Positions 1 through 22,627 of a stretch of 38,658 bases of DNA are shown in pieces. Origin of the DNA: a virus; IMG/VR virus record IMGVR_UViG_3300025617_000052, positions 1-38,658 of that record, one strand, 5' to 3'. How positions within the stretch are numbered: the stretch's first letter is position 1; each line of letters starts with the position of its first letter. The notes below the pieces were generated by a model. It was not told where the DNA came from and did not search any database. It saw nothing but the letters and a program-made list of their open reading frames with translations. The position numbers were made by a program, and so were the translations under genes.

Positions 1-3000
1 TGCTACGAACTTTACCATTTCCTAATTTAGCACTTGCTCTTGCACTTGTGCCATCTTCAACAAGCGATCCTTCGATAATTACTTCTGGAGGTGTAATGTA
101 TCCGCTTCCTGGATTAGTAACTAAAATAGCTGTAATACGTCCGCGACCCATATATGCAATAGCTTCTGCACCTGTGCCGCCACCGCCAACTAATCTTACA
201 ACAGGACGTTCTACATATCCTTCGCCCGCATCTCCGATTACAATTTCAGTAACTTCAAATCCTAAATTATCTAACCAGTTCTTGCTAGGATATTGATTAA
301 CAATGTCCGAAGCAGCAACAATTTCTCCGTCAATAATTTTTACATCCTGAGGAATAATCTTGCCTTCAGTTTCGCTATAATAAGGAGGAAGATCAAAGTC
401 TGTTACAACTGTATTAGAGTTTTCAGTCTTTTCATATGAACTTACATATTCACGTATCTTAGTTCTGTATGGTTTTGCTTCTTCTACGTAGTCTTCGTAA
501 CTAGGCAAGCTATCGTTTTTAAATGTGATAGTCTGCTCTAGTTCACCTACGTTGTGTTTAGCTTTTACAAAACTTGTTTTAAATGCCCAGTCAACATTTG
601 GTTGTTCTGAGAATACATAACGTAGACTTGCAAAGAATAGTTTGTTGTATTCTTCTTCTAAATCGTTAATAAAGATATTATCACGAATAGTTTGAAGCAT
701 AATACGTAATTCTTGTACAGGCTGTACATCGTAAAATACTTTATCAAAAGATGTTCCGTCAAATCCAGCATTAGCTGTTAAACTATCGTAGATACTAGTG
801 CTAAACTGTATAGTACCATTTTCTCTGCCGATGGTATCATAATTAACAGTATAATCTGCGTTTGGTTGATTGTTAACCTTTTTCAGTAGTAACCAACCGC
901 CTGTACCAACATTTTTAATTTTAACAATATCACCTAGCGAGTCGTCAATTAATTGTAGTTCATAACTTTGATTAACTAAGTGATCAATAGCTGTTGTTTC
1001 ACTGTATCCTGTAGCGTACCAATCGATATAATCCCAATACAAGTTTACATCATATGCTTGACTTTCTGCACGGTTCCATTCAGATCCGTTCCAGCTGTAA
1101 ATACTCCAGCGTCCGTTAATAGTTGCATCAGCTTGTACAAGAGTTGCAAATCTACGAATAACCAGTCTTGCATTTTGACTGTAATTTTCGCCACTGTCTA
1201 AAATTTGTATACGAGTTATTTTACCTTCACTATCAATTTGTATGTCAAAGTCTGCGCCTTGACCTGATGGATCAACAATCTCGTAAGTAGGTACAGTTTT
1301 ATACCCTCTACCAGGATTAACAATATTTGCTTCTTGAATCTTACCGTCTACAATTAATAGGTCAATTTGCGGTTGCTCAACATTAGCAATACTTACAAAT
1401 CTTAGTTCTGCTTCAGTGTCAATAGTTTGATCCCATTCGCCGGTTAGTACTGACGGTGCAGGAGTGCTTTGTGTTAACGGACTAATATCATATTCTTCAG
1501 CAATTAGATTTTTCTCTAGTACACCGTTAACACGCTCAAACAATTGTTTAAGTGCTTCGAAACGATTTACAAACCAGCTCTGTCTTGGATTATTTAGATT
1601 ACCGTAACGCTGCTTAGGCGATAGGTTTGGATCAGGTACAAACCTATCCTGTCTGTCATAACCTACTAAACTGTCAAACCATTTTTGTTCTACAACACTG
1701 TTTGGTTTACTTGTTGCTAGACCGTCACTTACAATTTGATATTCGCTGTGAATATTTTGTTCTTGGTTTTCAATAGTCCAGAAACGGAAGTTAATTGCAA
1801 CGTCATTGCCTCTAATTAAACTTTCACAGTTATAAATTGCAAATCTGTTGTTGCCTAATAGAGCAACAAATTTGTGTCCTTGATTTTCTGGATTTTGTAT
1901 AAACTGTTTAACTTCAAATGCACTAATAGTTCTTGTAGGAAGATTAGGCACAGTCTTTTTGTTAGCAACCCAGAAGTAATAGTAAGTTGTGAACGTTCCA
2001 CTAGCACTGTCGTACTCTCTACTAGTAGAGTAAGCGTTATTACCGTACTTACTAGTACCACTAATGCCTTTGGTTAATCCGTTTTCAGTATCAGCTTTGG
2101 CATCCCATTCGCTAGGTGTTAGTGTAGTCTTAACCCATTCGTATACTTCAATAGTGTTGTTTTCGAACAGTTGACTAAACTTGTTAACACTAGTAACAAT
2201 ATCACCTTGATAAGGATTAATAAATTTTGCACTGTCAATGTCCCACCAAACTTTACCAACAAACTTTTCAGCTGTGTGTGCTAGTTCGTCTACGTTTACG
2301 TTTAGTGTAGAATCTGCATCTTTAAATGAGTATACAGCCGGATCATAACTAGTCTTAAATGATATTTCTTGTTCAGCAGGTCCAGCAATCTTACCTTGTA
2401 TAGGATCAATATAATCCAAGTAAGAAATAATTTCTTGATCTTTAGTATCGTATAAGAATACACCATTAATCTTGCTAACGTCTACAGGGTCAATCGGTTG
2501 CTTATAGAACGTCCACGATCTAGCTGTTGTGCCTTTTCTAAAGTTAACAACCGAACCAGTACCTTCTGCAATATCTAATCTAGGAATACTTACATAAACA
2601 TGATTGTTTGATACCAATACTTGATCATCAAAGTATTCGCTATTAATAGCATAATTGTAATCTTTTGCAAAGATATATTTGTCGCCTATAAGCTCATATA
2701 TAGACACTGTTCCGCTAGCACCTGTGCCTCTTGACACTATAGCAAGTGTTTCGTTACCAAAATTTACTTTCTTTCCGAAACCTGTGTTGACAGTTCTAAG
2801 TCTGCCATAGAGCGTTTGTGATAATACAAACTCACCGTTTGTCTGTGTATAAATGTATACTGCACCGTTGTTACTTGCTACATCATCGTTGGTACTTGCA
2901 GAAACTGCAATAGTTTTACCGTCATTACTAATTGATATATTTTCAGCATAGGATTCGTCTGCAGATGTTAACGACTCAATTGCTTGACTAAACACATATC

Positions 3001-6000
3001 TGTCGTTTAACTTTCTGTAAACTAGAACTTGCGGAGCTTGTTGATTGTATTCTGCTGTTGTAATTAATACTCCGCCGTCTTGGCTTGCATCAAAAGATTC
3101 GCCAAACGCTGTAAGATCTTGTTGTCCAAGTACACTGTCATCAAAACCAAAAGTTTCTGTTACTGGAATATATCCTAATATGTCTGCTCTGTTTTCTAGT
3201 TCTGTCCAGAACATACTATTCCAAGAATTAGCACCCAAGTTTGTGTTAGCACTGTAGAGTTTACCATTAAACTCTACAATATCTTCTTCAGCGTAAGGTA
3301 TGCTATTATCAAACTCGCCGCGATATGCAGGATCTATACCAAGTTTCCAAACACCGTCGCCTGAATTTTTAATTATATAAATTTTACCAGACTCAACTGT
3401 ACTGTCATTTGCATTTTTTGCACCGGCTGCAAGTATAAATGCAGTATATGCATCGCCATCTTTTACAATCTTAATGTCTGTACCTAGTTGTGCTCCATTA
3501 TCAGCATCATTAACACTATAATACCCATTTAGAATGTATCTATCAGAATCGTCACGTTCGTAAATTGCATAAGCGCCTTCATAAATTAAGCCGCTTGCGT
3601 CTCTGCCGGCAGTAACCGGAATATTAAATACCTGTTTCCAGTCTAGGTTAAACGTTTCTGGGTCAGCTACTGCTCGCTCAATGCCTGCTTTAGCTTCCGT
3701 TACATAGACATAATACTCATAGTTCTCAATAAAGTTAAACTGACCTACAGGAATTTCTTCATTTTTCTCAATAACAACTAGTTTGCCAGCAACATCATTA
3801 TCTAATTTATTATCAAGAATGTCACCGATTAAGCGAACCGTACTATCTGTTTCTGCAAATGATGCTCTACCAATATCGTCGTTATTAATACCTAGCGCCC
3901 AGCCGTCTGTTGCGTTTCTTACAAAAATTCTTGCTCTGTCAAACAGTCGAATAACAAATGCAACCGTTGCACTTGCATCGCCGTCTGGATCAACTAGCGG
4001 ATCCCCAACTTCCGGAATGTAAGGATTACCGTAGTTTGGATTATAATCAATATCATCTGGGTTAGGAGAGCCAACTGTATCAAAGTTAGTGTAGCGAACT
4101 TCGAGCCATCCATCCCAAATATCTGTAATTTGGTGTAGATTGTTATTTAGGTAATCCCAAGGAAGACCGATTGCTTCTGGGTCTTGAACTTCGCCTAGTG
4201 GTGTAGTTCTTAAAGTATTAAACCAAAGTTTAAAATTGTCGCCTGCACTAAAATCTGTACTTTCAACAGGTAGTCTAAGAATCCAGTTAAGGCTTAGACG
4301 CTCAATTTCAGTTTGGCCTTCAATGTAACTCAAAGACTCAATATAACTAATTTCTGTTACATTGTCATCAGTATCGTTTTGTACATTATTATAAATGTTA
4401 TAATACGGTAATGTAGTATATGTAACTTCTTCAGATTTTGCAATATAGCGTACTACAAGATTTGCATTAGTTTCTGCTACAACGTTGCTATTAAATGAAG
4501 TTCCGACATTAATATACCAGAAGTTTTCAAAATCGTTGTACTTTTCGTTTCTAGGGAATACACGCTCGTATTCGCCAATTAATACATTGCCGTTTGCATT
4601 AAAGATTTCACCTGTTTCGTCAATTGAACCGTTAATATTGTTGACATAGATAATTGTTCTGTTGTCGTCAGTTGTATATCTGTACACAACTGTTGCACGG
4701 CCAGTAACTGTTGTTACTATATCGTCAACTTCAGGAATAGATTGCGTACTATCAACTCTAAGTACATCTTCAACTTTAGCGATAATTTCATGTTCGCCGT
4801 CGATAAAGTTTTTAGTTATAACACTGTGTGACTGGAATGGCAAGTAACCGTTTGGTTGTAGCCATGTATACTCATTCCATTCTAGTACTAGTTTGTCACC
4901 TATTTTAGTTGACTCGAACTGAGAACTATTAGCTCTAATCAATAAGTGATCAGTAGCGTCTTGCTCAAAACTATAGTTGCCGCGTACAATGTATTCTACA
5001 TCTGGATAATTTGTTCCAGTATATAAGTCTTCTTTAACAAATACATTTGAGTCAAAAGTATTAAGTGTTGTAATTTCTTGTGGTTCAATTGACTTATTTG
5101 CCTGCCATAACTGTCCTTTATAATTTACAACACTACCTTGAGGTACGCCAACATCTTTTAGATCGTCCCAGTTGCCTTTATAACTAGATCTAACGTTTGT
5201 AGCATAAGGTGCACCGACAATGATATACTCGCCGTCCGGTGATACTGCAACACCTTCGCCAAAGCGACTTTCAAAATCAAACAACGTGCCAGTTTCTTCA
5301 AACTTTTGCGATAAAGTAAAGTTACTTACTTCGTTAGCACGAGTAAAGATGTTAAGTGAGCCAATCTCGTCTGGACTTTGACTTATTTCTCCGGGCTGTC
5401 CTACTACTAACACTTGGTTATTTGATGTAACATCAACGCTAGTACCAAATAGATCAGGACCTTCTGAGTTTGTTAGTGTATTAGTAACACTGTAAACATC
5501 GTTATTTTCTAGTGTAACCCAACGATTATTACCAATATCATCAATCCAAAGTTTATCTTTGTTTTGTAGAGACACTTCGTTAATTTTGTTGTTAACTTCG
5601 TCAACTGAGCTTAGTCTAACTGTAGCCAGTTTAACAAGTGTTGCACTAATATCTTCTTGATTTCCGCCACTAGCTTCGATAGTAATAATATCATTTACAA
5701 ACGATAGTACCTTGTAATAGCCGTCTTGTTTATTTGCATTTCTTAAACCAATATAATCGCCAGCAGTTACATTAGGATTAATATCAACTTGTAGTGCTAA
5801 TCCTTCTAGTACTTGCTCTATGTTAACTACACGCACATTTGTATCAAGCACTTTGTATACGTTCCAAGATCTTCCTTCTGATGCTACCCAAATATAATCG
5901 TTGGCAACAGTAGTAGAAATATCTAAGTTAAGAATATCAGTAAATTTGTCAACTGCATGTTCTACGTCATCTCGGTCAACGTATCCAGCAGTTTGCAAGA

Positions 6001-9000
6001 ACCCTTCAGTAAAGTATGTTGTAGGGAAAGGTTTATGATCGTAATTTTTAGTTTTTAAGTATACATCATTTCGTGTTAGATTTAATACCAAACTGACATC
6101 ATTAGGATCTACTCGCTCTACTAGTTCTACAGGCTGAGGACTTAGTCTGTAATCTTCTTCTGGAATAATTACTTCAAACTCATCAAAGCCACTGTTAGCA
6201 CCATATTGTCCTAGTCTAATAGCCCATTCTTCGTAGAACTCTAAACTGTCTTTGCTTGCACTACCTAGTTTGTCAAACAATTTAGTAAGTGCATTTTGTG
6301 TTCCTTTGTCACGAATAAAACCTTGATAGAACTTGTATTGACTTGTGCTGTCAGGAATAATATTTTCTAAATATTTTCTTGCTTGATAGCCAATAAAGTG
6401 TTGTGCAAGTTTTTGTTGTTCAGTATCAAAGTTATTAGTTTCTAGGCTATAGAAATCTGTAAACTGGTTAGCTTTGTAATCAAAGTTTGCCAACAGTTGA
6501 CTTTCTGGCTTAGAACTTAGTCTATTCCATTGTTCGTCAATGAATGTTTCTGTACCTGTAATTGACTGATTAGCAGCATAAAAGAATTGCTTATACTTAA
6601 CTAAGTCACCGATTGTATATGCTTGCCAAGGTTGCCACGCTGTTACCTGTGCTTCATCATATATAAATCCAGGAATGTTTAATCCGCCATTCCAGTCATC
6701 TGAACGATAGCCAAGAGCACGAATTCTTTCTTGACGGTATCCGCTAGCCTTGTCATAAATTACATCACCAAACACTGTTTGATTGTCAATTACAACAACA
6801 TGTTCTCTTTGTACAACAGGAATCTTAACATGATAAATGCCTTCTGTTGTATTACGAACTTTAAGTCCAAAAGAATTTGTTTTATCGCGTACTGTATTAC
6901 CAAACTCAGTAACCAGTTTCTTGCCGTCTGCTTTTAATAAGCTGTAGTCAAAGAAGTTATCAAATATATCGTCAACTACTGCATAGTCCTTTTCAAACTT
7001 TAAGAAGTTAGCAGCAGGGCTTAAACTAATAACTGTTCCTGCCTTCCAGTTTTGTAGTGTCCAGAACATGAACTCTCTTGCGCTCAATGCCCAGTTTTCG
7101 ATATTTTCTAGATCTTTATTGAAGTTATCAAATACAAACCCTATACTTTCTAAATACTTTCCATAACCTATTAAAAAGTCAACTACTTCTTGTATGCTTC
7201 TGTAGGTTGTACCGTAAGGAACAGTTGATATTGTAGTAGCAAAGTTTTTACGGAATTGTGCAGTGGCGCCGCCTACTAGAGGAAGTTCAGGCATTTTTTG
7301 GAAATTGTCTGTGTTAAATTCGGTAGAGCTGCTATGGGTTGTTTTTACTCTATAAAATTCGTTGTTGAATCTTACAAGTTGTCCTTGTGCATAACGTTTG
7401 TTTTCGTCCCAATCTAAAAACGATTCTGTTACTCCTCCAACCCTTACTAGAGGATCGTTATTAAACTCAACTGGCTTGTATATTTTAAATTCAGGCGATG
7501 TTTTGTCATACCCTTTTACGATAAAGCCTTGTGCTTGTTTTTCAATAATTACACCACTATAAGAATACAAGTCAATCGGTGTACTTGTGTTTAGTATAAT
7601 TTGATAGTTTTCATCTGGAACAAAAATGTTGCCTTCATTTAGTGGCGTTCTACTGTCTAATATTAGGCGTAGTTTTTCTTTTGCACCAAACCCTGCTAGT
7701 TTAAATCCTAGTTGATTAGACAAACTAGTTAATGTGTTTTTGTACTGTTCGTACATCAACCCAGTGTTGTCTGTTAGCAGTCCTTGCATATAGTTTACAA
7801 GACCTGCTGTGTATACTCTGCCTTCACCTGTGGTAATTGCAGGGAAAACAACATCATTTAGGGACAAGCGTTTGTTAGTAGTTGAGTAAACTAGTTCGTC
7901 TGCACTATTTCTTATAATTCTGCTTCTGTCGTATGCAAGTCCAAATACTTTTGCAGGTTGATTTACTAACCATGCAACAATTACAGAAAATGCATGTTCA
8001 CTGCTTCTTCTCCATGCTGTTTCAATAGGACCTTCGTCTCCGAAACGCATGCTGTCTTTTTGTGTTGTGGTCAAAAACTTTTGTGCAACACTTGATTCAT
8101 CTGGTGATAATAATTTACCTTCTGAATCTACAGGAATATAATTCATTAGATCAGTGTGCTTGTACTTGTTATCGTATCTAGGGTTGTTAGGATCACGAAT
8201 GTATCCGTTTTGAATATCTTCCCAAATTCTAAAATTATCTTTGGTGTATGGAGCAGATCCGTATTCATCGTCCCACCATGCAGGTTTAACCGTAAAGCCT
8301 AGGCATTCCCAAGGCATTGTGTGAGGACGATCAGTTCCGTAATAGTCTTTGTAGATTGCTCTCCAATAACCCGGAATAGCTTGACCATTTGGAAATGCTC
8401 CTGTGTAATAGTTCCAAGTAAACGAGTTTAATCCGTCATACCCTGCATTTTGAGTGTAGTCAACACTACCAACTGTTGTTAACCAGTCATTAAAGTCAAC
8501 AATCATACTAGGTGCAATTGAGAAACGATCAAATCCAGTAGGTCTGTCAACAGTGTTAATAAAATCGTTTACATCAAATACATCTGGATTGTATTCAATT
8601 TTAATATTGTTGTAGATTCTTAATTCTAGATCTAAAATTAAATCATCTCTAAAGTCTTGGTATGCTCGTGTAAGACTTCCGTCGTGCCCTTGTATCATAG
8701 GAACAAACTCGGGATACATATCAATTGACGTATTATCCTGTGCAACTTTTTCTAAAGAGTTAGTTGGAGCAAACAGTATTGTCGGTGAACCATCAAACAT
8801 TAGTGCTGTAACTTCACCTTGAGAGTCAGCTGCGCTTGCTGCTGCTTCAGTTGTATATAAAGGATAAAAATATCCTGTTTGTGGTGCTAGTTTTGCATCT
8901 ACTGCTGTATCAAGATTACCGTATACTTTGTATGCAACATCTTCTTGCGCAGTACCTGATTGGTATGTATCGTCTTGAATAAGTTTTGGAATATACTTGT

Positions 9001-11947
9001 TCCACATTCCTAGTTTTGTAGGTGTTGGCGGAATCCAGCATCCGTCTGTTGATTCGTACTCAAAGACTTCTACAGTGTCGCCAGGCTCAGAATATGCAAG
9101 AATTTCAATGAAGCTGTTTTCATTAAACACATAATCTCTAGCATGTGTTAGCTGACGCCCGTTTAGGTATACTAAAAATGCACGTTCTGTAAGCTGTGTT
9201 AGATCAAACTGTGAGCTGATTGGAAAGAAATTGTTGTCGGTGTCAAACACTTCATATGTAAACTTTTCAAAGCCACCAAACGGAACCATGTCTGAAAAGT
9301 AAAACGGATCCTTTTCAGTTTTAGGACTAGTTAGCTCAAGTAATACTTTGTCTACAAATTGTTTAGTAGTACCATCGAAGCCTGATCCGTCAGCAGTTTG
9401 TAAAAATGCTCTTTTAAACTTAGAATATTCTGTTTTAGCATGTCTTACTGCTTTAACAACGTCAAATTCTTTTTGTGTAAAGTGCAAGATTGGAAGATTA
9501 ATAGATCCACTGTGCTGTACAAAACGAGTACCGTAAGGTGAAATATCGCCTAGGTCACGTAGATTGCTAACACCTGGATATTTACCTGCGTAATCTTCTA
9601 AGTTTTCAACAATGCTGTTTACATGGTCAATTACTTGTCCAAGTGTAAAATCAGTAACATTTTCGTTTTGTGGATTATTCTGTAGATTTACAGGAAACTC
9701 ATAAAACCCCTTTTCAGTTTTAGCAGCACTACTTTGTGTTTTGATAACAATTTTATCATCAGTTGTTAAGTTGTTTTCAAATCTAACAAGTGATTTTTGA
9801 TTTATTCTATTAACTTCGTAGTCGGTATTTTCTAGTAGTTTGTTGTTGTTTAGATATACTTCAATTTTTAAATCGTTTAAGTCGCCGCTGTTTTCATAAA
9901 CATCAACAGGAAAATTATTTCTAATTTCTACTGTGTTATACTGACGTGTAACTTTTTGTACAGACTGACCTGCTTTGGTCCATGGACTAACTGTTTCAAA
10001 ATCTGTTAAGCTGTTGTACACTCTTAGTAGAGCACTATCGGTTGTTGCTGTTAGTACGTCTGTTAGATTTTGGAATGTAAATGTATCAGTTTGGATATTA
10101 AAGTCAAAGATAATATCGCCACTGTTTTCAATACTTCTGTAGGATAATGGAAATCCTAATTCTGTATCATCAGCACCGGTACCTTCTCTATAAGAGAAAA
10201 GTTTAGTGCCTGCAAATGTGCTGCTTTCTAATTCGCTTAGACTGTTTCCAGCAACACCAAACAAGTCAAATCGCGGATGCTGATTAAAGTCTGTTTTTTC
10301 TTGTGCAACTGCCCACTGTGTTCCGTTGTAGTAAAAGATCTTGCCGCCATATGTACTACCGTCTTTTACAAAAACAGTTTCGTTTGTTTGTGGCTGTGTA
10401 TCGTCAACTTCTACTAGTGCAATCTGTGTTTCTTGTGTTGCTGTTGCAGGTCCGCTATGATTAATAAACTTAACTTCAAAAATTCTACCGTTAACTAGAA
10501 TGTCTTCGTCTGCTGCAAATAGCACACGCATTCCTTGCACTAAATCAACACCGTCTACGTTGTAACCAATACTTCCTTCTACAGTAGAAAATACATCTTT
10601 AGTTTTTAAATCAATTAAGTCTACTGCTTGCTTTGCGCTTGTACCAAAGTTAAATAGTTTAAGACCTGCACGATATTCAATAATAGGTCTTGTTGCACGA
10701 TAGTTTTGATCAATATCTGCAGGCGTTCCGTTGACCAGTGCCGACGTTTCAATTACACTACGGTGCGTCCATTGATTGTAACGAGACCAGTAATTGCTGT
10801 CAGGTGCAGCTCTATTGATTACAATATAATCTTTAACGTCTGAGTATCCTTTAGCATCATCAAAAGGAAGTTTATCAAACGGATTTGCATCAAATTCAAT
10901 TTCTTCGTCGCCAATGTAATCACCGGTAATTTCTAGATCAGTTTCTGAAATTAGTTTAATTGACGTGCCGACGCCTTCAACATACCATGCACCTTGTGCA
11001 TATTTTTCAGGTGTAACATCACCACGAAATTCTACCTTCATACCGTTTGACAAAGCATATCCGTTTGTCATAGTATAAGATGATTTTCCTAAAATTTCTC
11101 TGTCTACATCAATAGAAGAATTTTCTTCTGCATCACGAATAATAATTAAACCGTGAATTCTTTCATCGTTGTCGTTAGTATAAAACAGTCTGTCCGGTGC
11201 AGTTAGAGGAACTTCAAATTTAATTGTTCCTTGATCAACTGAGTTAGCCGACAGGCCAACTGAATACAATGTATCATCTTGTAATACTGTGTTAAATCTA
11301 ATACTGAATGGCATATCAGGCGTATCAATGTCAAACACATACTTCTGTCCTCTGTACAGTGTAAGTGTTTCGTTGACTACTGTATTTTCTTCTCTAAAAC
11401 CGTAAGCAACGTTATCTACATTGTCAACAGGACGTACTCTAAACTCAGATTCAATGTCACGAAGCTCGCCTATTACAGCAATACTATCAGGACCGTTTGG
11501 CATCCAGTAGTATTCACGGAAGTTAACAAACTTATCCCAGTCAATGTGTGGTTCCCAAGCATAGTATTCTTGAGTGTTAAGCAAACTGTGATCAGCAACA
11601 TTTCCGTTTCTAATCTTTACACCGTTAATAAAATCAATGTAGTCAGAATAAACATCAACGTTGCCGATTGCATCTCTGTGTACCACAGCAGGTTCGAACT
11701 GATAGTTTTCTCTTTCTGCACTTACATCAGTAATATAGTTGTCTAAATTTTTAAATGCTTTAGAATCTTTACGTCCAAAGTATCCATCAATCTTTTCAAC
11801 TACGCCTGGATTGATTAGTTGATCTAAAGTAGAGGATAAAAATTTCTCGTTAGCTACTGTTCTAAAATACTTAGGTAGAAACTGAGAACTTTTTCTATTC
11901 TTATTTGCATCCTTACCAAGTGGGATATTGTTTTCATCTTGGCTCAT
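1..11947 (-). CDS. Giant baseplate/tail structural protein, C-terminus cut by window edge
   Basis: One open frame runs without a stop from the ATG at 11947 (MSQDENNIPLGKD) through 3982 codons to the left edge, so the protein is larger still. It starts 2 bases after the gp6 stop, the slot of T4 gene 7 (a wedge protein of about 1030 residues) and of the vrlC-type structural genes of marine T4-like phages. Recognisable parts in order: four short aromatic modules like chitin-binding CBM5/12 (about residues 1508-1553, 1768-1810, 2258-2296, 2873-2917); FG-GAP-like beta-propeller blades in two blocks (about 2145-2252 and 2918-3120); and glycine-rich GxGY...P repeats near the end (about 3526-3605 and 3895 onward). 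No signal peptide or membrane segment is evident. I infer a virion baseplate or side-fibre protein that may touch host glycans. The exact T4 homologue is uncertain; the coding call is secure. Confidence 0.9.
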   Translation of the reverse strand, partial: MSQDENNIPLGKDANKNRKSSQFLPKYFRTVANEKFLSSTLDQLINPGVVEKIDGYFGRKDSKAFKNLDNYITDVSAERENYQFEPAVVHRDAIGNVDVYSDYIDFINGVKIRNGNVADHSLLNTQEYYAWEPHIDWDKFVNFREYYWMPNGPDSIAVIGELRDIESEFRVRPVDNVDNVAYGFREENTVVNETLTLYRGQKYVFDIDTPDMPFSIRFNTVLQDDTLYSVGLSANSVDQGTIKFEVPLTAPDRLFYTNDNDERIHGLIIIRDAEENSSIDVDREILGKSSYTMTNGYALSNGMKVEFRGDVTPEKYAQGAWYVEGVGTSIKLISETDLEITGDYIGDEEIEFDANPFDKLPFDDAKGYSDVKDYIVINRAAPDSNYWSRYNQWTHRSVIETSALVNGTPADIDQNYRATRPIIEYRAGLKLFNFGTSAKQAVDLIDLKTKDVFSTVEGSIGYNVDGVDLVQGMRVLFAADEDILVNGRIFEVKFINHSGPATATQETQIALVEVDDTQPQTNETVFVKDGSTYGGKIFYYNGTQWAVAQEKTDFNQHPRFDLFGVAGNSLSELESSTFAGTKLFSYREGTGADDTELGFPLSYRSIENSGDIIFDFNIQTDTFTFQNLTDVLTATTDSALLRVYNSLTDFETVSPWTKAGQSVQKVTRQYNTVEIRNNFPVDVYENSGDLNDLKIEVYLNNNKLLENTDYEVNRINQKSLVRFENNLTTDDKIVIKTQSSAAKTEKGFYEFPVNLQNNPQNENVTDFTLGQVIDHVNSIVENLEDYAGKYPGVSNLRDLGDISPYGTRFVQHSGSINLPILHFTQKEFDVVKAVRHAKTEYSKFKRAFLQTADGSGFDGTTKQFVDKVLLELTSPKTEKDPFYFSDMVPFGGFEKFTYEVFDTDNNFFPISSQFDLTQLTERAFLVYLNGRQLTHARDYVFNENSFIEILAYSEPGDTVEVFEYESTDGCWIPPTPTKLGMWNKYIPKLIQDDTYQSGTAQEDVAYKVYGNLDTAVDAKLAPQTGYFYPLYTTEAAASAADSQGEVTALMFDGSPTILFAPTNSLEKVAQDNTSIDMYPEFVPMIQGHDGSLTRAYQDFRDDLILDLELRIYNNIKIEYNPDVFDVNDFINTVDRPTGFDRFSIAPSMIVDFNDWLTTVGSVDYTQNAGYDGLNSFTWNYYTGAFPNGQAIPGYWRAIYKDYYGTDRPHTMPWECLGFTVKPAWWDDEYGSAPYTKDNFRIWEDIQNGYIRDPNNPRYDNKYKHTDLMNYIPVDSEGKLLSPDESSVAQKFLTTTQKDSMRFGDEGPIETAWRRSSEHAFSVIVAWLVNQPAKVFGLAYDRSRIIRNSADELVYSTTNKRLSLNDVVFPAITTGEGRVYTAGLVNYMQGLLTDNTGLMYEQYKNTLTSLSNQLGFKLAGFGAKEKLRLILDSRTPLNEGNIFVPDENYQIILNTSTPIDLYSYSGVIIEKQAQGFIVKGYDKTSPEFKIYKPVEFNNDPLVRVGGVTESFLDWDENKRYAQGQLVRFNNEFYRVKTTHSSSTEFNTDNFQKMPELPLVGGATAQFRKNFATTISTVPYGTTYRSIQEVVDFLIGYGKYLESIGFVFDNFNKDLENIENWALSAREFMFWTLQNWKAGTVISLSPAANFLKFEKDYAVVDDIFDNFFDYSLLKADGKKLVTEFGNTVRDKTNSFGLKVRNTTEGIYHVKIPVVQREHVVVIDNQTVFGDVIYDKASGYRQERIRALGYRSDDWNGGLNIPGFIYDEAQVTAWQPWQAYTIGDLVKYKQFFYAANQSITGTETFIDEQWNRLSSKPESQLLANFDYKANQFTDFYSLETNNFDTEQQKLAQHFIGYQARKYLENIIPDSTSQYKFYQGFIRDKGTQNALTKLFDKLGSASKDSLEFYEEWAIRLGQYGANSGFDEFEVIIPEEDYRLSPQPVELVERVDPNDVSLVLNLTRNDVYLKTKNYDHKPFPTTYFTEGFLQTAGYVDRDDVEHAVDKFTDILNLDISTTVANDYIWVASEGRSWNVYKVLDTNVRVVNIEQVLEGLALQVDINPNVTAGDYIGLRNANKQDGYYKVLSFVNDIITIEASGGNQEDISATLVKLATVRLSSVDEVNNKINEVSLQNKDKLWIDDIGNNRWVTLENNDVYSVTNTLTNSEGPDLFGTSVDVTSNNQVLVVGQPGEISQSPDEIGSLNIFTRANEVSNFTLSQKFEETGTLFDFESRFGEGVAVSPDGEYIIVGAPYATNVRSSYKGNWDDLKDVGVPQGSVVNYKGQLWQANKSIEPQEITTLNTFDSNVFVKEDLYTGTNYPDVEYIVRGNYSFEQDATDHLLIRANSSQFESTKIGDKLVLEWNEYTWLQPNGYLPFQSHSVITKNFIDGEHEIIAKVEDVLRVDSTQSIPEVDDIVTTVTGRATVVYRYTTDDNRTIIYVNNINGSIDETGEIFNANGNVLIGEYERVFPRNEKYNDFENFWYINVGTSFNSNVVAETNANLVVRYIAKSEEVTYTTLPYYNIYNNVQNDTDDNVTEISYIESLSYIEGQTEIERLSLNWILRLPVESTDFSAGDNFKLWFNTLRTTPLGEVQDPEAIGLPWDYLNNNLHQITDIWDGWLEVRYTNFDTVGSPNPDDIDYNPNYGNPYIPEVGDPLVDPDGDASATVAFVIRLFDRARIFVRNATDGWALGINNDDIGRASFAETDSTVRLIGDILDNKLDNDVAGKLVVIEKNEEIPVGQFNFIENYEYYVYVTEAKAGIERAVADPETFNLDWKQVFNIPVTAGRDASGLIYEGAYAIYERDDSDRYILNGYYSVNDADNGAQLGTDIKIVKDGDAYTAFILAAGAKNANDSTVESGKIYIIKNSGDGVWKLGIDPAYRGEFDNSIPYAEEDIVEFNGKLYSANTNLGANSWNSMFWTELENRADILGYIPVTETFGFDDSVLGQQDLTAFGESFDASQDGGVLITTAEYNQQAPQVLVYRKLNDRYVFSQAIESLTSADESYAENISISNDGKTIAVSASTNDDVASNNGAVYIYTQTNGEFVLSQTLYGRLRTVNTGFGKKVNFGNETLAIVSRGTGASGTVSIYELIGDKYIFAKDYNYAINSEYFDDQVLVSNNHVYVSIPRLDIAEGTGSVVNFRKGTTARSWTFYKQPIDPVDVSKINGVFLYDTKDQEIISYLDYIDPIQGKIAGPAEQEISFKTSYDPAVYSFKDADSTLNVNVDELAHTAEKFVGKVWWDIDSAKFINPYQGDIVTSVNKFSQLFENNTIEVYEWVKTTLTPSEWDAKADTENGLTKGISGTSKYGNNAYSTSREYDSASGTFTTYYYFWVANKKTVPNLPTRTISAFEVKQFIQNPENQGHKFVALLGNNRFAIYNCESLIRGNDVAINFRFWTIENQEQNIHSEYQIVSDGLATSKPNSVVEQKWFDSLVGYDRQDRFVPDPNLSPKQRYGNLNNPRQSWFVNRFEALKQLFERVNGVLEKNLIAEEYDISPLTQSTPAPSVLTGEWDQTIDTEAELRFVSIANVEQPQIDLLIVDGKIQEANIVNPGRGYKTVPTYEIVDPSGQGADFDIQIDSEGKITRIQILDSGENYSQNARLVIRRFATLVQADATINGRWSIYSWNGSEWNRAESQAYDVNLYWDYIDWYATGYSETTAIDHLVNQSYELQLIDDSLGDIVKIKNVGTGGWLLLKKVNNQPNADYTVNYDTIGRENGTIQFSTSIYDSLTANAGFDGTSFDKVFYDVQPVQELRIMLQTIRDNIFINDLEEEYNKLFFASLRYVFSEQPNVDWAFKTSFVKAKHNVGELEQTITFKNDSLPSYEDYVEEAKPYRTKIREYVSSYEKTENSNTVVTDFDLPPYYSETEGKIIPQDVKIIDGEIVAASDIVNQYPSKNWLDNLGFEVTEIVIGDAGEGYVERPVVRLVGGGGTGAEAIAYMGRGRITAILVTNPGSGYITPPEVIIEGSLVEDGTSARASAKLGNGKVRS

Positions 11948-11949
11948 GT

Positions 11950-14900
11950 TTAATTACTTCCTCCGCTCTGAATACCTGTATTAACGGTTCCTGTAGAACT
12001 AACAAATGCTCCTTCGCCTGCATTGATTCTTGAAGCTGTTATACTATCAATTATTTCAATATTGTCAACAGTTGCATCACTAATAAAAATTTCGTTTTCT
12101 TCTGATTTAATTTCGTACATACTACCAAATGTTTGATCTTCCTGAACAGGCACGATTATAAAGTTAGTTATGTCTGGAGCAACACTGTTCATTACATACG
12201 TAGCTAGTTCTGTAAAGTTAAACGACTCTCCAAATGTCCAGTTGTCAAGTGCAAAAAATTGATTCATTGCTGCAACAATTCTTGATTTTATATCATTGTC
12301 ATTTACAACTTGTTCTGGATTTTTAACTACTTTAAATACTGCTTGAAGTTTTTCTTCTGCTTTGCTTCCGAATAACACTTTATATTTTACTGGATGATAA
12401 ATTATTTCATCACTAGTAGCTTTGTATTGATTAATTTCTTGACCGTAATTTAAAAACAACTGATCCGAACTTGGCGGTAACGGTTCAGTTGATGTAGAAT
12501 TTGCAAGATACTTTCTAAAGTCTGCATCATATTGTCTTGTTAGAATGTAAGTATCAATGATATTTGATGCACCTGGATCAATTCTGTTGTTTTCGTCAGC
12601 ACTGTGTATGTATTGAAATTTAATTTTGTCTCTTCCGACAAACGCTTTGTAGTCTGCTGTTAGTACTAGAATATTTGTTTGTAGTGTTTTAAATACGTCT
12701 GCATCTCTAATATAGAAAATCTGTCCATTATCGTATTGTGTAAACGAACCAATATCTGCTTCAGTGTTTACTGTTCTAATAGTAGAAGCAGATTCGCCGT
12801 AATAAACATAAATCTCAGAATCTTGTCCCGAACTTACTTTTTGTAAGAATACTAATTTATCTTGTGGATTAGTTTCTTCGTCAACTAGTTCTTCAAAAAT
12901 ATCTGGATCATCAATAATACCGTCGTCGTTTCGATCATAAAATCCAACTTCAACTTTTTTACTATTAATGTATCCGTCAACGTCTGTAAACTCTGAAACA
13001 ATTTCCCAAATAAAATCTGTATTAAATGCTTGTGTACTGTCAGGTTGTGTGTTAATATTTAGAACGTCAACTTTATCTTTGATTAACTGACCTGTTTTGT
13101 TGTCGTATATTTTTTGTTTTGCATCAAAGTAAAAATTAATTTCTTCGTCACTCTCAAATACATAACGAAGACCTCTAGTAGTAATTGTATATTTTTCACC
13201 GTTAGTTTCAAACAGTAGCAACCAACTTGCATCTAGGTTAGCTCGCGTTGTATCACCTGCTTTACCGTTACTAAACTCGCCGGTAATGTTTAAGTTTTCT
13301 TTTAAGATAACACGCCATTGTCTAACATTTTGATCGTAGCGCAAACCAAATGTTTTGTATGCAAAAATTTGATCAATCATTTGTGTTTTAACATCTGCAG
13401 GAAGGAGTCTTGTATACTTTGGCCTTACTTCGTCTAGTACTGCACCTGTAGGAATAGTTTCATTCAGTGCAATTGCACCTGCTTCATCAGCTGTTAGTTC
13501 TACACCACTATCAAATACACTTAATACCCGTACCCATTTATAATACGCTGCTCCAGGAACGCCTATTCCTGTTCCGACTCTAATAGCATAATTGTCAGTT
13601 GTGTCAAAGTATGTGCCCGTTGGTGCAACAAATTTAAGTAGCGCACCTGACTCAACATAGCGCAAGGCGCCGCCTGTAAATTCACCTAACCGAAAACGGT
13701 CTGTTCCGTTGGTTAAAAATCCTGTAGAGCTATTAGATGCTGTAGTAGTTTGATCGTAAGTTGCATTTAAATCATTAACAATAATACGTGCATAGTTTGC
13801 ATGATAGAAATTGTTGATATTTCTAGTTGCCAGTAATGGTTCAATTAAGTTAGCAATTTGACCTTCGATATCTGTTTGATTGTTAAATGTAAAGCTATTT
13901 TTATTGCTTACATACTCTTTGTAAAGTACGCCGTCTTTGGCAAACAAATTAGTGCTAGAATACTTGCTAGTAGGATCTTTAAGATCAAAATATCTGCTAA
14001 TACCACTGCTGGTACGATTTGTGCTTTTTACTTTAATAATTTCTTGACTTATGCCGAGCGGAATAACTTGATAGTCTTCACCTGTGATCATTCTGTTTTG
14101 CGAATAATAAGTTTGCGGAGCATTACGTTTGATACTTGCCGTAGTTTCGCTAATGCTTGCATTAGAAACAGTTTCTTTAAGTGCTAGTGCAACTGTAACA
14201 GTTTGTATGCTTCCGTTTCTTGCAACATAATCAATAGACATTGTTACATTACTAATGTCGCCTGCGCGAATTACAAACTGTCTGTTTGCACTTGTGCGAT
14301 AGTAGATACGGAAACTACCACGAGGTAAGTTGCCAAAAATGCCGTCACTAAACAGTAGGTTAATTCTATCATCTACTCTAGTTTGTACAGCATAAATATT
14401 TCTCAGATTCTTTTCAATTGAGTTATAAATTACGTTGTTGCCAACAGCACTGTCAACTCTTGACCATAAATTACTTTCAATACCTAAACTATTTAAACTG
14501 TACAAGAAAATATCATCGTTATTAATATTTGTAGCATCAATATTAATTACTTGATTTGCGCTGGGAGAACTAACACTAAACTCTCCAGTTTGTATTGATC
14601 CTTGGCGAAAATGCATAAAGTAACCTGTGTTAGCACTACCGTTCCCGCGGCCATCTTCTCTGTAGAGAAATGCCATACTGTTACCAGGTAGTGGAGGTTC
14701 TTCTACAATGTTAGAATCTTTAATTGTGCTGCTTACAACTTCAAACTGTGTGTTTAATCCATTAACAGATTTACTAAAACTATATTTCGGAATGTTTCTA
14801 TTAGTTGCATTAAAACGATACTGTTGTGTTAGTACACCGTTAATAGATTCAGACTTGTTTGGTTTACCAATAATACCATTAGCAGGAAGTGCAGCATTAA

Positions 14901-15378
14901 GAATTTTATTAAATTGTTCATACCAGTTTGAGTTGCTTGGATCGTTCCAAATAATATTTTGTCCGGCTAAGTTAATGCCGTTTGAGTCAACTAGTGATTC
15001 TGTCGTACGCACACTTTCAATTTTAAGAAAACCATTTGCAGCTCTATTACGTTTAGGATTATACGCAAGAGTACGTGCTAGACGTAGTACACTTTCTCTT
15101 CTGTCAGCAAGTTCAAGAAAGTTTTCTCTAGCATTAAGGTCAACACGGAAAGCAATATTTTGACCTAGGAAAGCAATAAGGTCAATCAGTGCTAGATATT
15201 CGCTTGACTCAATATAATCATTAAAGTCTTCTGGATAATTTTGTCTTAGGTATGTGATCATAGAGCGACGAAGATTATCAAAATCGTAGCTCTGGAAATC
15301 TGCATTGCGGAACGACTGATAAACTTTTTTCCAGTCTTCTGCAATTAATAATCTGTTTTGTCTATCTGTTGCTGACAT
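11950..15378 (-). CDS. gp6: Baseplate wedge subunit gp6
   Basis: The protein has 1142 residues, against about 660 in T4, as is common in marine T4-like phages. gp6 forms the inner ring of the baseplate wedges and joins them around the hub. The N-terminus is typical of the family: an aromatic stretch (DFQSYDFDNL), then ALIDLIAFLGQNIAFRVDLN and a basic segment (RLARTLAYNPKR). A middle GEDYQVIPLG segment and a C-terminal region with NFTELATYVMNSVAPDI also fit. The start at 15378 is preceded by GAGGAAAG at good spacing and by a late-type AATAAATA element. It lies between gp25 upstream and the giant structural gene 2 bases downstream, matching the order in T4-like phages. Identity is confident; the role of the extra length is unknown. 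Confidence 0.88.
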   Translation of the reverse strand: MSATDRQNRLLIAEDWKKVYQSFRNADFQSYDFDNLRRSMITYLRQNYPEDFNDYIESSEYLALIDLIAFLGQNIAFRVDLNARENFLELADRRESVLRLARTLAYNPKRNRAANGFLKIESVRTTESLVDSNGINLAGQNIIWNDPSNSNWYEQFNKILNAALPANGIIGKPNKSESINGVLTQQYRFNATNRNIPKYSFSKSVNGLNTQFEVVSSTIKDSNIVEEPPLPGNSMAFLYREDGRGNGSANTGYFMHFRQGSIQTGEFSVSSPSANQVINIDATNINNDDIFLYSLNSLGIESNLWSRVDSAVGNNVIYNSIEKNLRNIYAVQTRVDDRINLLFSDGIFGNLPRGSFRIYYRTSANRQFVIRAGDISNVTMSIDYVARNGSIQTVTVALALKETVSNASISETTASIKRNAPQTYYSQNRMITGEDYQVIPLGISQEIIKVKSTNRTSSGISRYFDLKDPTSKYSSTNLFAKDGVLYKEYVSNKNSFTFNNQTDIEGQIANLIEPLLATRNINNFYHANYARIIVNDLNATYDQTTTASNSSTGFLTNGTDRFRLGEFTGGALRYVESGALLKFVAPTGTYFDTTDNYAIRVGTGIGVPGAAYYKWVRVLSVFDSGVELTADEAGAIALNETIPTGAVLDEVRPKYTRLLPADVKTQMIDQIFAYKTFGLRYDQNVRQWRVILKENLNITGEFSNGKAGDTTRANLDASWLLLFETNGEKYTITTRGLRYVFESDEEINFYFDAKQKIYDNKTGQLIKDKVDVLNINTQPDSTQAFNTDFIWEIVSEFTDVDGYINSKKVEVGFYDRNDDGIIDDPDIFEELVDEETNPQDKLVFLQKVSSGQDSEIYVYYGESASTIRTVNTEADIGSFTQYDNGQIFYIRDADVFKTLQTNILVLTADYKAFVGRDKIKFQYIHSADENNRIDPGASNIIDTYILTRQYDADFRKYLANSTSTEPLPPSSDQLFLNYGQEINQYKATSDEIIYHPVKYKVLFGSKAEEKLQAVFKVVKNPEQVVNDNDIKSRIVAAMNQFFALDNWTFGESFNFTELATYVMNSVAPDITNFIIVPVQEDQTFGSMYEIKSEENEIFISDATVDNIEIIDSITASRINAGEGAFVSSTGTVNTGIQSGGSN

Positions 15379-15436: not shown

Positions 15437-15880
15437 TTATAATAAGCCGTTGTCTTCGTCAAATTGTAGCTTGAGCTGTTCGGAGATATTATAAGGAAGA
15501 TAAGTTAACACACACTCTATTTGTAGGCCGCTTTCGTATGAATTTACAAACACTTGATCAGCCTGTACTCGAGGATCGCTGTTAACAATAGTAGTAACAT
15601 TTTGTGCAATAGCTTCTTTGAGTGTTTCAGTAAGTGGCTCAAACAGGGCGTCCCAAATAATACATCCAAACTCAGGATTTTCTAATTTCTCGCCCTGGCG
15701 GATATGAAAGTGATTGAGTAAATCTTGTTTAATAAGACCAATATCATACAACACAAAACTATTGTTTTCTTCGTTTACTGTTGACATTCCTCTGTAGGCT
15801 TTTGAGCTCACAGGAGGTTTTTGTGCAGCGGCTGTCTGCACTTTGATATTTTTATAAAGGTCTTTTTCTACACTACTCAT
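15437..15880 (-). CDS. gp25: Baseplate wedge subunit gp25
   Basis: The protein has 147 residues (T4 gp25 has 132). It belongs to the GPW/gp25 family, which holds the sheath-facing side of the wedge and is also found in type VI secretion baseplates. The family signature is visible: LYDIGLIKQDLLNHFHIRQGE, then LENPEFGCIIWDALFEPLT, then a conserved beta region ending LTYLPYN. The ATG at 15880 has no ribosome site, only TTATT between it and a GATAAATA element. The first internal Met (residue 32) follows an AGAGGA set too close. The upstream residues KAYRGMSTVN look like the usual family N-terminus, so I keep the longer start. Confidence 0.88.
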   Translation of the reverse strand: MSSVEKDLYKNIKVQTAAAQKPPVSSKAYRGMSTVNEENNSFVLYDIGLIKQDLLNHFHIRQGEKLENPEFGCIIWDALFEPLTETLKEAIAQNVTTIVNSDPRVQADQVFVNSYESGLQIECVLTYLPYNISEQLKLQFDEDNGLL

Positions 15881-15917: not shown

Positions 15918-16664
15918 TTATGTTGTTGTATCTGATCCTGCTTGTGCTGCGGCTGTACCATCAACTGGTACATCAAATTCTGGAGGCACTGTCCAGTTTC
16001 TTTTAATATGTTTTACATACTGACTGTTATCTCTAAATCTGTAGTTAGAAATTTTTGCATCGTTACTTTGGTTTCCTCCTAAAACTTTTATAACACCATT
16101 TGACGTAATTTCTTGAATAAATCCAATATGGCCGCCACTTCGAGTTAAACTTTTAAAAACTACAATATCATGTTTGCGAATATTAGAAGTATCTCTCCAA
16201 TCAACTTCTCCTCCCCAACTGTTAAAACCTTGACTGCTCATTGTTCTTTCGGTCGGAATGCCTGCTGTATGTAATACCCAGCTAACAAAAGCAGCACACC
16301 AAGCATAGGCCATGTCGTTACCGTCTCTAGTATAGTTGTTATTACAAACTTGATAGCACTCTAAAATTCTTGGATTACCTGGACTGCCTCTTTCTTGCCA
16401 ATCCTGTGCAAGAACATTATTGAGAATTGCGTCAAGTCTTTCGTATCCTGGATTTTCTGGAATAGGTCCAGGAGTAATATTAGGATTTGGTGTGTATTCT
16501 CCTGGAATTCCTGCTTGTCGGCCTCCTGGACCTACAACAGGGTAGTCTCCTTCTAAATCAAGATAGTTGTATCTGCCTGCTTCTAATAAAGCATTCCAGT
16601 CTGCGTTATCTGCAAATTCTAAAGGATTTGCTACGGTTGATGGTGGTATAACTACTTGTCCCAT
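15918..16664 (-). CDS. CHAP/NlpC-P60-type peptidoglycan hydrolase
   Basis: The protein has 248 residues. The core at about residues 75-215 looks like the CHAP-like TIGR02594 cysteine hydrolase family: AWCAAFVSWVLHTAGI with likely nucleophile Cys123, a GGHIGFI motif with likely catalytic His179, and LGGNQSN, typical of these enzymes. They cut amide bonds in peptidoglycan. The Pro/Gly-rich N-terminus and the Ala/Thr-rich tail look like linkers. No signal peptide is seen. The start lies 1 base after the gp5-like stop, with AGGAC inside the end of the upstream gene. Sitting between the spike and gp25, it is more likely a virion-associated entry enzyme than a late-lysis endolysin, though it could serve both. 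Enzyme class is fairly sure; the role is inferred. Confidence 0.78.
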   Translation of the reverse strand: MGQVVIPPSTVANPLEFADNADWNALLEAGRYNYLDLEGDYPVVGPGGRQAGIPGEYTPNPNITPGPIPENPGYERLDAILNNVLAQDWQERGSPGNPRILECYQVCNNNYTRDGNDMAYAWCAAFVSWVLHTAGIPTERTMSSQGFNSWGGEVDWRDTSNIRKHDIVVFKSLTRSGGHIGFIQEITSNGVIKVLGGNQSNDAKISNYRFRDNSQYVKHIKRNWTVPPEFDVPVDGTAAAQAGSDTTT

Positions 16665-16665
16665 T

Positions 16666-19497
16666 TTATGATGTCCTCACAATGCCATTTAAATCATTAT
16701 CAATACTTGCATTTCTGCGCCATGTAACACCGTCGTCTGCAATATATTCGTACAATTGTCCGCCGGCTTCGTTGTCTCTAATAGTAATCGATGTACCTGG
16801 CGTTGCCGGAGCAAACGGTCCAGCACCACTTGCTACATCTGATTCTAAATCTACTGATGCTCTGTAGGTTGTAATACTATCTACTGTGGACACAAAGTAG
16901 CGTTCTTGATTAACATCTGTAATCCATGCCGGATCATAAGTGCCATCTGCTAAAAGTTTATTTTCTAAGAAACCTAAATCTTTAGGACGACCTAGTTCGT
17001 AGCCTCTGTCTGATCCGGCAATTGCCATACGCATATTTCCTAGTGTATCATAACCAAAATCTCTATAACGTTCTTTTAAATATGCTGCTGTAACTGCAAC
17101 ACTAAGCTCAACATCTGAAAGAAGCGGAGTTGGATCGTTAACAATTGTAACTCCAAACGGATTATAATCAGATTCGAGACCTGGATTAATTAATCTAGGC
17201 AACTGTTGCGATGCCAATCTTCCGTAACGTTGATGATTTCCTTTACCTGTTAACTGTATCAGTCCTCGACCAACAAACTTTGCGCCATCGCCCGGAGCTA
17301 GATTCCCTAGCTCAACACCTTTAGCACTACCAGGACCGTAAACTAATTCATAAAAGTTATCATAATCTTGTTTAATTTGTGTGAGTTCTGCATCAGTTAC
17401 TCGACGTGCGCCACGGAAAATACTTCTAATACGATCATTAGCAGTTCCTGCATAACTAGCTTCTTTTATTAGTTGTAAGTTTGATTCTGTTTCAGCGCAT
17501 GCAATAGCAGCATACACTTCTTCTTCATTAAATCCTTCAGCAAATAGTGCGGCGGCGAAGACTCTAGATATTTCTTGTTTTTCAATTCTTATCGGTTCAG
17601 GATCTTGTGGAATATCTACGCCGTCAATTGGAGTAAATCCTCGACTACCTTGTACTCCGCCACCACTATTATAGCTGTTAGGACCTGCACCAGGTTGTGA
17701 CACTGTGCCGCCTGGACCTCGAGTAAATGTATCTGGTGTACTCGGTGGATATTGTTCTGGGTTTTGATTACCAGCACGAGTTTTATCTGGAGTAAATTCT
17801 TCTGGATTAATATTTTCGTGTTGGAACCAAGGTTCGTGCTCAGGACGTCTTGTTGTAACAAGTGCAGGGTCTGGAGGACCGCTTTGTAATACAACTGGCT
17901 GAGGTGGTATTCCAGCAAGACTTGGCGTAGGAGGCTCGGGTGGCGTAGTATTTTGGATATCAACTTTTGTATCTGATTTAATTATAGTATCAGACGCCGA
18001 CTTTAACCCAATGGTTGCATTTGATTTAGCAAGTATACTTCCTTCTGCTGTTAGGCCAAATACATTTCCCGAGTTTATTTTAAAAGCAAGATCACTATGT
18101 AAATGTATTTCTGCTTCGGCTGTAATTTTAGTAGTTCCTAAACTTTTGCTAGTAATATCTCCGTCTGATGTAATTTTAACATATCCGTGTCCTTCAATAC
18201 CAACACCGGTAGGTGATCCAAGAGCAAGATTTTCTCCACTTATTACACTTTGTTGTTGTGCTGCAACAATACTACCATTGCTTGAAGCATATATAACTAC
18301 ATCTTCGTGAGAGTTAATAGAAGTGCTTTTGCCGCTGTTAGTATTTAAAACTGTGCCTGCTTGTATGTGCGTTCCTTCAAGACTAAGTGTTTTAACTTTT
18401 TTGCCAACAATGTTAATATCTTCTCCTGCTGTTAGGTTAATATCTCTATCAGCAGTAAAATTTAAATCTTGTTGTGTCCTAACACTTACACTATCTTGTG
18501 CATAAATGTCAATCTTACCGTTACTAGACATTTCTATCCAAGACGTTCCTCTGCTGTTAGAAATGTAAATTAAATCTTCTGAATTGTGTAGCAGTATTTG
18601 GTGTCCTGTACGTGTTCTAACACGCACTAGTTCATTGTGAGGAATGCTAGGATCGCCGCCGGATTCGCCAGCTTCTACGTTTGCATATTCTTGAGGGCTA
18701 TCTTTAGGAGATCCTTTTCTTTGTAAACGTTCGTCGCCGTCATCCATTACAAAACTAGAACCACCTAGTCTTGATCTAGGATAATTTACACCACTAGTAT
18801 TTGATCCGTAATTTCCTCTCGGAGCACCTGGACGTCTGTCTAGTGGTCCAGGGGTGTTAATACCAAAAACTGTGCTCGGCGTTTCTCGTCTAGCACTAGT
18901 AGAAGTTATACCTCTTACTTCGTCTTCTAATAGTCCTTGTTCGATAAGGGTGTTAACAAATTCTGCATTTGCAGGTTTTGCATAGTTATTAGGTTGAGTC
19001 CCTTGAAATTGGAAGTTTTTATTAAATTCAACTGCCGGAAGTTTTTTACCTTGCAATTCTCCACTAGCAGAACCATCTGCAATATTAGCTGTAGCAGGAG
19101 TACTTCCAGGTACCATAAAATTCATATATTCGTCTTGTACACAACCTATCCAATAAGCTTGGTTAATTTGGCCTTCGACTAAAATTACAAGTACTCGTGT
19201 TCCTGGATCAGGCGGTACCATCCACATACCGTAGCTTTGCTGTGAACTTCTATAATCGTTATTTTGCGAACTAGATGCAATCGGTGTTACACCGTAAAAC
19301 GGCATAAGATACCTTGCATTAATAATCTGTCCTTCCGAACCGTCGTCATTTGCACTAGTAACATTTGTTAATAGTTGTACTCGCAGGTCTCCAGAATATC
19401 TTGCATCTAAATGATCAACTACTTTTGCTAAAAACGGTCCTGATCCTGAATTTGGAAGTGTGTTATTTGCTCCAGCTGATCTTCTATCTATTGCCAT
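16666..19497 (-). CDS. gp5: Baseplate hub/tail lysozyme gp5-like, with C-terminal GH19-type domain
   Basis: The protein has 943 residues. Residues about 20-140 look like the gp5 OB-fold (SGDLRVQLL, PPDPGTRVLVILVEG, YWIGCVQDEYMN). Residues about 300-520 resemble the gp5/VgrG beta-helical spike, with short periodic repeats such as DINLTAGEDINIVG. A Pro-rich linker (about 520-640) leads to a lysozyme/chitinase-like domain at about 640-845, with CAETESNL (Glu669 and Glu671 are candidate catalytic acids) and GRGLIQLTGKGNHQRYG, the hallmark of GH19-type enzymes. In T4 gp5 the lysozyme lies between the OB domain and the spike and is of another family; here it is at the C-terminus. It is the membrane-piercing spike that also degrades cell wall. 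It abuts the hub gene upstream with no gap. Confidence 0.82.
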   Translation of the reverse strand: MAIDRRSAGANNTLPNSGSGPFLAKVVDHLDARYSGDLRVQLLTNVTSANDDGSEGQIINARYLMPFYGVTPIASSSQNNDYRSSQQSYGMWMVPPDPGTRVLVILVEGQINQAYWIGCVQDEYMNFMVPGSTPATANIADGSASGELQGKKLPAVEFNKNFQFQGTQPNNYAKPANAEFVNTLIEQGLLEDEVRGITSTSARRETPSTVFGINTPGPLDRRPGAPRGNYGSNTSGVNYPRSRLGGSSFVMDDGDERLQRKGSPKDSPQEYANVEAGESGGDPSIPHNELVRVRTRTGHQILLHNSEDLIYISNSRGTSWIEMSSNGKIDIYAQDSVSVRTQQDLNFTADRDINLTAGEDINIVGKKVKTLSLEGTHIQAGTVLNTNSGKSTSINSHEDVVIYASSNGSIVAAQQQSVISGENLALGSPTGVGIEGHGYVKITSDGDITSKSLGTTKITAEAEIHLHSDLAFKINSGNVFGLTAEGSILAKSNATIGLKSASDTIIKSDTKVDIQNTTPPEPPTPSLAGIPPQPVVLQSGPPDPALVTTRRPEHEPWFQHENINPEEFTPDKTRAGNQNPEQYPPSTPDTFTRGPGGTVSQPGAGPNSYNSGGGVQGSRGFTPIDGVDIPQDPEPIRIEKQEISRVFAAALFAEGFNEEEVYAAIACAETESNLQLIKEASYAGTANDRIRSIFRGARRVTDAELTQIKQDYDNFYELVYGPGSAKGVELGNLAPGDGAKFVGRGLIQLTGKGNHQRYGRLASQQLPRLINPGLESDYNPFGVTIVNDPTPLLSDVELSVAVTAAYLKERYRDFGYDTLGNMRMAIAGSDRGYELGRPKDLGFLENKLLADGTYDPAWITDVNQERYFVSTVDSITTYRASVDLESDVASGAGPFAPATPGTSITIRDNEAGGQLYEYIADDGVTWRRNASIDNDLNGIVRTS

Positions 19498-22327: not shown

Positions 22328-22627
22328 TTATCTTCCTAGTACTGTTCTAAGTCTGTCACCTTTTGGCAAATAAATCTGTGTTCCGGATACAAAATCAAAA
22401 ATAGGATCTTTGATTACGTCCATATTTCTTTGAGAAAAAACCCACCATAGTTTAGGATCGTCATACAGATCATACGCAAGTAAATCAGGGCGGTGTGTAT
22501 ACTGCGGTTGTATTGTGTAAAGCACATCATCAGGCTCCGACGGAACTGGACGAATTCTTAGTTTGTCTAAATAAAATTCTTTTGTTTTAGTTTTGCCCCA
22601 AGGACTTGCTGTTGAGTATCTTGCCAT
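22328..22627 (-). CDS. gp53: Short baseplate wedge protein, gp53-like
   Basis: The protein has 99 residues. The motif is distinctive: QPQYTHRPDLLAYDLYDDP, then LWWVFSQRNMDVIKDPIFDF, then a short end GTQIYLPKGDRL resembling a LysM/tail-X-like fold. This is the pattern of the short gp53-type wedge proteins of marine T4-like phages; T4 gp53 is 196 residues. It overlaps the gp48-like stop by one base (TAATG) and ends 1 base before the hub start, so translation is probably coupled. gp53 normally clamps neighbouring wedges into the closed six-part baseplate. Identity rests on motif and position. Confidence 0.72.
   Translation of the reverse strand: MARYSTASPWGKTKTKEFYLDKLRIRPVPSEPDDVLYTIQPQYTHRPDLLAYDLYDDPKLWWVFSQRNMDVIKDPIFDFVSGTQIYLPKGDRLRTVLGR

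Follow-up and report, generated by a model that had tools for sequence, protein, structure and literature searches.

A RaK2-related jumbo myophage encodes a 4,939-residue virion protein, probably in the T4 gp7 role, with a predicted integrin-like propeller

Results

We analysed a 38,658-nucleotide stretch of viral DNA (IMGVR_UViG_3300025617_000052; the window), the minus strand of which carries a single 3,982-codon open frame at positions 2-11947. We consider it probable that this frame encodes the N-terminal 81% of a virion protein from a jumbo myophage related to RaK2, and that the protein most likely acts in the role of T4 gp7. The initial annotation had described a frame of at least 3,982 codons that runs off the edge of the window; indeed, it starts with an ATG at 11947 and is still open at base 2. 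On leftward extension, the stop was reached in an overlapping contig, IMGVR_UViG_3300025608_000522 (L037), which shares 1,935 bases with the low-coordinate end of the window with no mismatches. The gene continues at L037:3-4808, with the stop at L037:4806-4808, 957 codons further on. The window frame joined to this contig gives a protein of 4,939 residues and 555 kDa (the giant), of which the window holds residues 1-3982.

The giant is the "largest ORF" of the RaK2 family (PHROG 10938, "virion structural protein"; E=0, 1,032 bits, best stretch at residues 1084-1768), and its source is a RaK2-related jumbo myophage. Named members of PHROG 10938 include RaK2 ORF070, CBB_236, PBECO4 gp538, PA5oct gp355 and Atu_ph07 AUZ94962. 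A tblastn search matched the giant to 57 phage records at 24-31% identity, and almost all of these belong to the RaK2-like jumbo group (RaK2, K64-1, CBB, PBECO4, 121Q, PA5oct, MIJ3, Atu_ph07, Munch and SCTP-2 among them). It bears the marks of the family, namely an N-terminal LPxxxxT motif, a KG[TS] motif and a C-terminal EAKPYRTKIR block. The RaK2-like giants share with it the order after gp25 and gp6, two conserved halves and the KG[TS] motif, and are 25-29% identical to it over the full length; unlike the 4,939-aa protein analysed here, however, they measure 3,326-4,449 aa (RaK2, 3,326; PA5oct, 3,857; Atu_ph07, 4,449). Phage records gave no match at the DNA level, the sequence of the giant matched no solved structure, and NCBIfam gave only matches at chance level.

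Virion mass spectrometry, to which the initial annotation looked for evidence of the protein, has detected its homologues. The sequence record of PA5oct gp355 carries an ESI-MS/MS note, and CBB_236 was found in virions with 21 peptides (7.7% coverage; PMC5259590). Phage phAPEC6 gp245, a 382-kDa protein which adjoins the baseplate wedge protein gp244 and is probably an orthologue of the giant, judging from its size and neighbour, was found with 17 peptides (7.6% coverage; PMC7247149). The detected relatives mostly lack the propeller described below, and the phage analysed here is not among them.

The gene order in the region is gp46-gp47-gp55, diverging from structural protein-gp53-structural protein-gp5-lysozyme/hydrolase-gp25-gp6-giant; RaK2, CBB and PA5oct have the same arrangement. 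The minus strand encodes the gp53 baseplate wedge protein (22328-22627; PHROG 7145, E=4e-26; Pfam Phage_gp53 just under the cut-off), a gp5-like hub protein with a lysozyme-type region (16666-19497; PHROG 13211, E=2e-51; PHROG 181, endolysin), the gp25 baseplate wedge/sheath initiator (15437-15880; Pfam GPW_gp25, E=4e-9) and a gp6-like baseplate wedge protein of 1,142 aa (11950-15378; PHROG 10646, E=5e-292; PHROG 219, E=1e-23). The gp6-like protein, too, is enlarged (660 aa in T4). A separate gene between gp5 and gp25 (15918-16664, minus strand) encodes a CHAP-domain hydrolase; in RaK2 and CBB this place is taken by a lysozyme gene. Beyond the giant lie a 201-aa protein and then fibre-like proteins. 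On the plus strand, a gene for a SegE-like GIY-YIG homing endonuclease (27522-27971; Pfam E=1e-35) adjoins gp46, and the head-gene block includes a gene (34517-35146) for a 209-aa protein with a weak match to CST-I alpha-2,3-sialyltransferase (E=2e-4, under the Pfam cut-off).

The conservation profile and alignment reveal two conserved halves of the giant separated by a variable middle. The first half, a scaffold common to RaK2-like phages (5798-11947, minus strand; residues 1-2050), begins with LPxYFRTxxNxKFLxxTLDQL. The window part of the second scaffold half (2-2500, minus strand; residues 3150-3982) ends in glycine-rich repeats that cyanophage baseplate proteins also have. In the halves (about 1-2050 and 3100-4300 in the full protein), near relatives are 40-60% identical to the giant and RaK2-like isolates about 20-35%; in the variable middle, identity among near relatives is 15-26%.

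The middle contains an FG-GAP (integrin-alpha-like) beta-propeller interrupted by an insertion (2510-5500, minus strand; residues 2150-3146; Pfam FG-GAP_2, E=2e-7, above the cut-off). An AF2 model of it (31 homologues) had a pLDDT of 85.5 and a pTM of 0.67, and residues 2150-3146 aligned by VIA-align with integrin alpha heads at Z up to 34.5 (rmsd 3.2 A, about 355 residues). In the sequences of both the giant and a compact relative (L013) we counted seven propeller repeats by eye. On the model, then, the propeller that the initial annotation had glimpsed is genuine, with a seven-bladed integrin-alpha-like fold. The second repeat is split by a beta-rich insertion of about 696 residues (3107-5194, minus strand; residues 2252-2947). 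Freshwater relatives (L013, L015, L017 and others) have a compact seven-repeat propeller without this insertion, with breakpoints near residues 2251 and 2948. In another clade, that of L102, a YHYH domain (E=5e-37) follows the first propeller repeat, at about residues 2182-2382 of its giant, in the part of the propeller region that holds a different insertion in the present clade. Where the present giant has about 1,000 residues of propeller and insertion, those of RaK2, CBB and PBECO4 are reduced to about 100. The integrin alpha-subunit shares with the giant the propeller fold (Z 31-34.5 over about 355-370 residues, 14% identity) and a large domain inserted in one repeat; unlike in the integrin, however, the propeller here is part of a phage virion protein, and the insertion is a different, larger one inside repeat 2.

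The sugar-binding-like modules proposed from the sequence also proved to be present, as carbohydrate-binding-type modules. A chitin-binding-type CBM_5_12 module (7319-7411, minus strand; residues 1513-1543) was matched by Pfam at E=2.4e-14 for the protein (53.5 bits, cut-off 26.2). The model of a second, CBM_5_12-like module (6518-6652, minus strand; residues 1766-1810) matches fibre/baseplate proteins of two Agrobacterium phages, Milano (Z 8.3) and 7-7-1 (Z 7.7), over about 45 residues at an rmsd of 1.3-1.4 A. Weaker CBM_5_12-like copies lie in the insertion near residues 2270-2300 and 2880-2910, the latter at E=3e-4, under the cut-off. The idea that the protein grew by adding such modules holds only in part. 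The propeller with its insertion accounts for about 1,000 residues and the two clear CBMs for about 90, which is only about a third of the roughly 3,900 residues beyond the length of T4 gp7. We rejected the modules as the main source of growth; the greater part of the excess is a conserved scaffold that RaK2-like phages without a propeller also possess.

The variable display section, as we call the propeller and insertion with the flanking chitin-binding-type modules, probably docks fibres or binds host or matrix glycans, and the giant may contact the host. There is close to an even chance, though, that the propeller and CBM-type modules are purely structural, docking fibres or bracing the wedge with no host contact. 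Such a role would agree with that of T4 gp7, a peripheral frame which carries gp9, gp10 and gp8 (PMC3004832), and with that of the gp7 orthologue of phage XM1, a protein of 242 aa which binds tail spikes (PMC10457771); the genes that follow the giant, moreover, encode fibre-like proteins. However, no other part of the protein is nearly as poorly conserved as the display section, in which whole domains are gained or lost, a pattern commoner for surfaces that face variable partners. Fibres vary too, so this is not decisive, and gain and loss of whole domains with large variation fits fibre binding and host or matrix glycan binding alike.

The giant likely fills the role of T4 gp7, as judged by position and a short motif rather than proven by homology. 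The proposal that it occupies the T4 gp7 slot was borne out as to place: the giant follows gp25 and gp6, and the gene after gp6 in T4 is that for gp7 (1,032 aa), a large protein at the baseplate periphery. As to homology, the two have no significant sequence similarity. The great length of the giant, which the initial annotation had set against that of gp7, is not exceptional for the slot. The genes after gp25-gp6 in cyanophages encode 4,225 aa (ACG-2014f, annotated as baseplate wedge initiator), 5,195 aa (P-SSM2), 6,280 aa (WH25-B) and 7,312 aa (P-SSM4, annotated as gp7), and the gene in the gp7 slot of Sinorhizobium phage phiN3 encodes 1,006 aa. Because the occupants vary so widely, size says little in the slot after gp6. 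The two longest cyanophage genes (L123:7120-25962 and L124:5145-27083; 6,280 and 7,312 codons) are among the longest of the phage genes covered here. The cyanophage giants resemble the present one in lying directly after gp25-gp6, in their thousands of residues and in their glycine-rich repeats; however, sequence similarity is confined to the repeats, and their KGT motif lies near residue 200-700, not 1,880.

The motif in the giant, FYQGFIRDKGTQNALTKLFDKL (6266-6331, minus strand; residues 1873-1894), resembles FYSTKGIEASYKFLFKVL of T4 gp7, and its FY and KG[TS] are retained in nearly all aligned relatives. The T4-like proteins share FYSxKGxxxSxxxLFKxLYxE, and a gp7 HMM recognises this motif (hhalign, 82%) in the giant of WH25-B. 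In RaK2-family giants, FYxGxIxxKGTxxxLxKLF stands in a comparable position and is conserved nearly family-wide. When the whole giant was scanned against the gp7 motif profile, the windows with the KGT motif scored top, at a probability of only about 24-25%. When the profiles of the giant family and T4 gp7 were compared in full, the probability was 1.2% and the top alignment fell in the insertion. The motif HMM scored gp7 sequences no better than reversed decoys, and when a composite of the N-terminal and KGT segments was compared with a gp7 mini-profile, random placements scored equally high. An AF2 model of residues 1565-2165 had a mean pLDDT of 72 and a pTM of 0.36 and was unreliable in the motif part (pLDDT below 50). 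Foldseek with this model returned only small barrel domains and none below E 0.001; searched against the PDB, the model brought up no gp7, which proves nothing.

The giant could instead be a baseplate protein that is not the equivalent of gp7, if gp7 had been lost and an unrelated giant had taken the slot after gp6. The lack of significant similarity to gp7 would fit such a replacement, as would a published analysis of pelagimyophages and cyanomyophages, according to which these lack T4 gp7 and VrlC appears to have substituted for it (PMC7029224). We think replacement unlikely, however: the giant lies directly after gp25-gp6 in all relatives, the motif resemblance falls at its best-scoring place, and no alternative candidate for gp7 was seen among the genes read. 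In addition, gp7 is highly divergent, forming up to nine clusters (PMC3037559). The gp7 role thus remains our preferred reading.

The giant gene is real, single and unbroken. The chance probability of a frame this long, based on the stop frequency in the other five frames of the window, is about 1e-139. The G+C content by codon position is about 0.49/0.35/0.25 and constant along the whole frame, and therefore no hidden frameshift is seen. Contig 3300025608_000013 (L005) shows no mismatch to the window across the gene's first 10,139 bases. The nearest relative (L038, 4,948 aa) aligns with the giant in one BLAST segment, residues 1-4939 to 1-4948, at 54% identity. Numerous environmental relatives carry the gene uninterrupted from end to end, at 4,266-5,266 aa, so it is not a false join, and isolate genomes have the same single gene. 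The frame is broken by a shift or gap, through either sequencing error or real decay, in three relatives (L017, near 18601-18610; L029, near 13828-13848; L096, 8070-9410), and contigs 000013 and 000522, from the same metagenome, break within the gene with an overlap of 127 bases, a point that the window itself spans. An assembly or frameshift artefact that fused two genes, which these breaks might suggest and which the initial annotation had named as a possible refutation, was rejected on the unbroken relatives and the codon composition, and we give it a negligible chance.

Discussion

The protein family itself was already known, as were its size and its occurrence in virions. As far as tested, what is new is the integrin-like fold, one repeat of which is interrupted, the series of relatives with no propeller, a compact propeller or inserted domains, and the candidate motif shared by position with gp7.

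We propose the following arrangement. One copy of the giant (we infer this number) would sit in each baseplate wedge, bound to the gp6 dimer, and would form the outer frame of the baseplate. The two conserved halves (residues about 1-2050 and 3150-4300) would make up the wedge frame together with the gp6 dimer. Between them, the seven-repeat propeller and its roughly 700-residue insertion, flanked by the chitin-binding-type modules, would form the variable display section; the propeller and CBM-type modules may project from the rim and dock fibres or touch sugars of the host or matrix.

A more tentative proposal, on which we would place rather less than even odds, is that the propeller is a docking cassette. 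The same wedge frame has no propeller in RaK2 and CBB, a compact one in the freshwater relatives, one with a YHYH domain in the L102 clade and one with the CBM-bearing insertion of about 700 residues in the present clade. By exchanging domains in the propeller loops, the phage might then alter the surface that it turns towards hosts or fibres, in a parallel to integrins, whose I domain sits in such a loop.

The slot after gp6 is elastic, with occupants of 1,006-7,312 residues among T4-related phages, and the RaK2 lineage has kept a large fixed frame while exchanging the display section. Should this section make contact with hosts or fibres, host-range evolution in jumbo phages would involve the baseplate frame as well as the fibres, and attention should then turn to the propeller loops.
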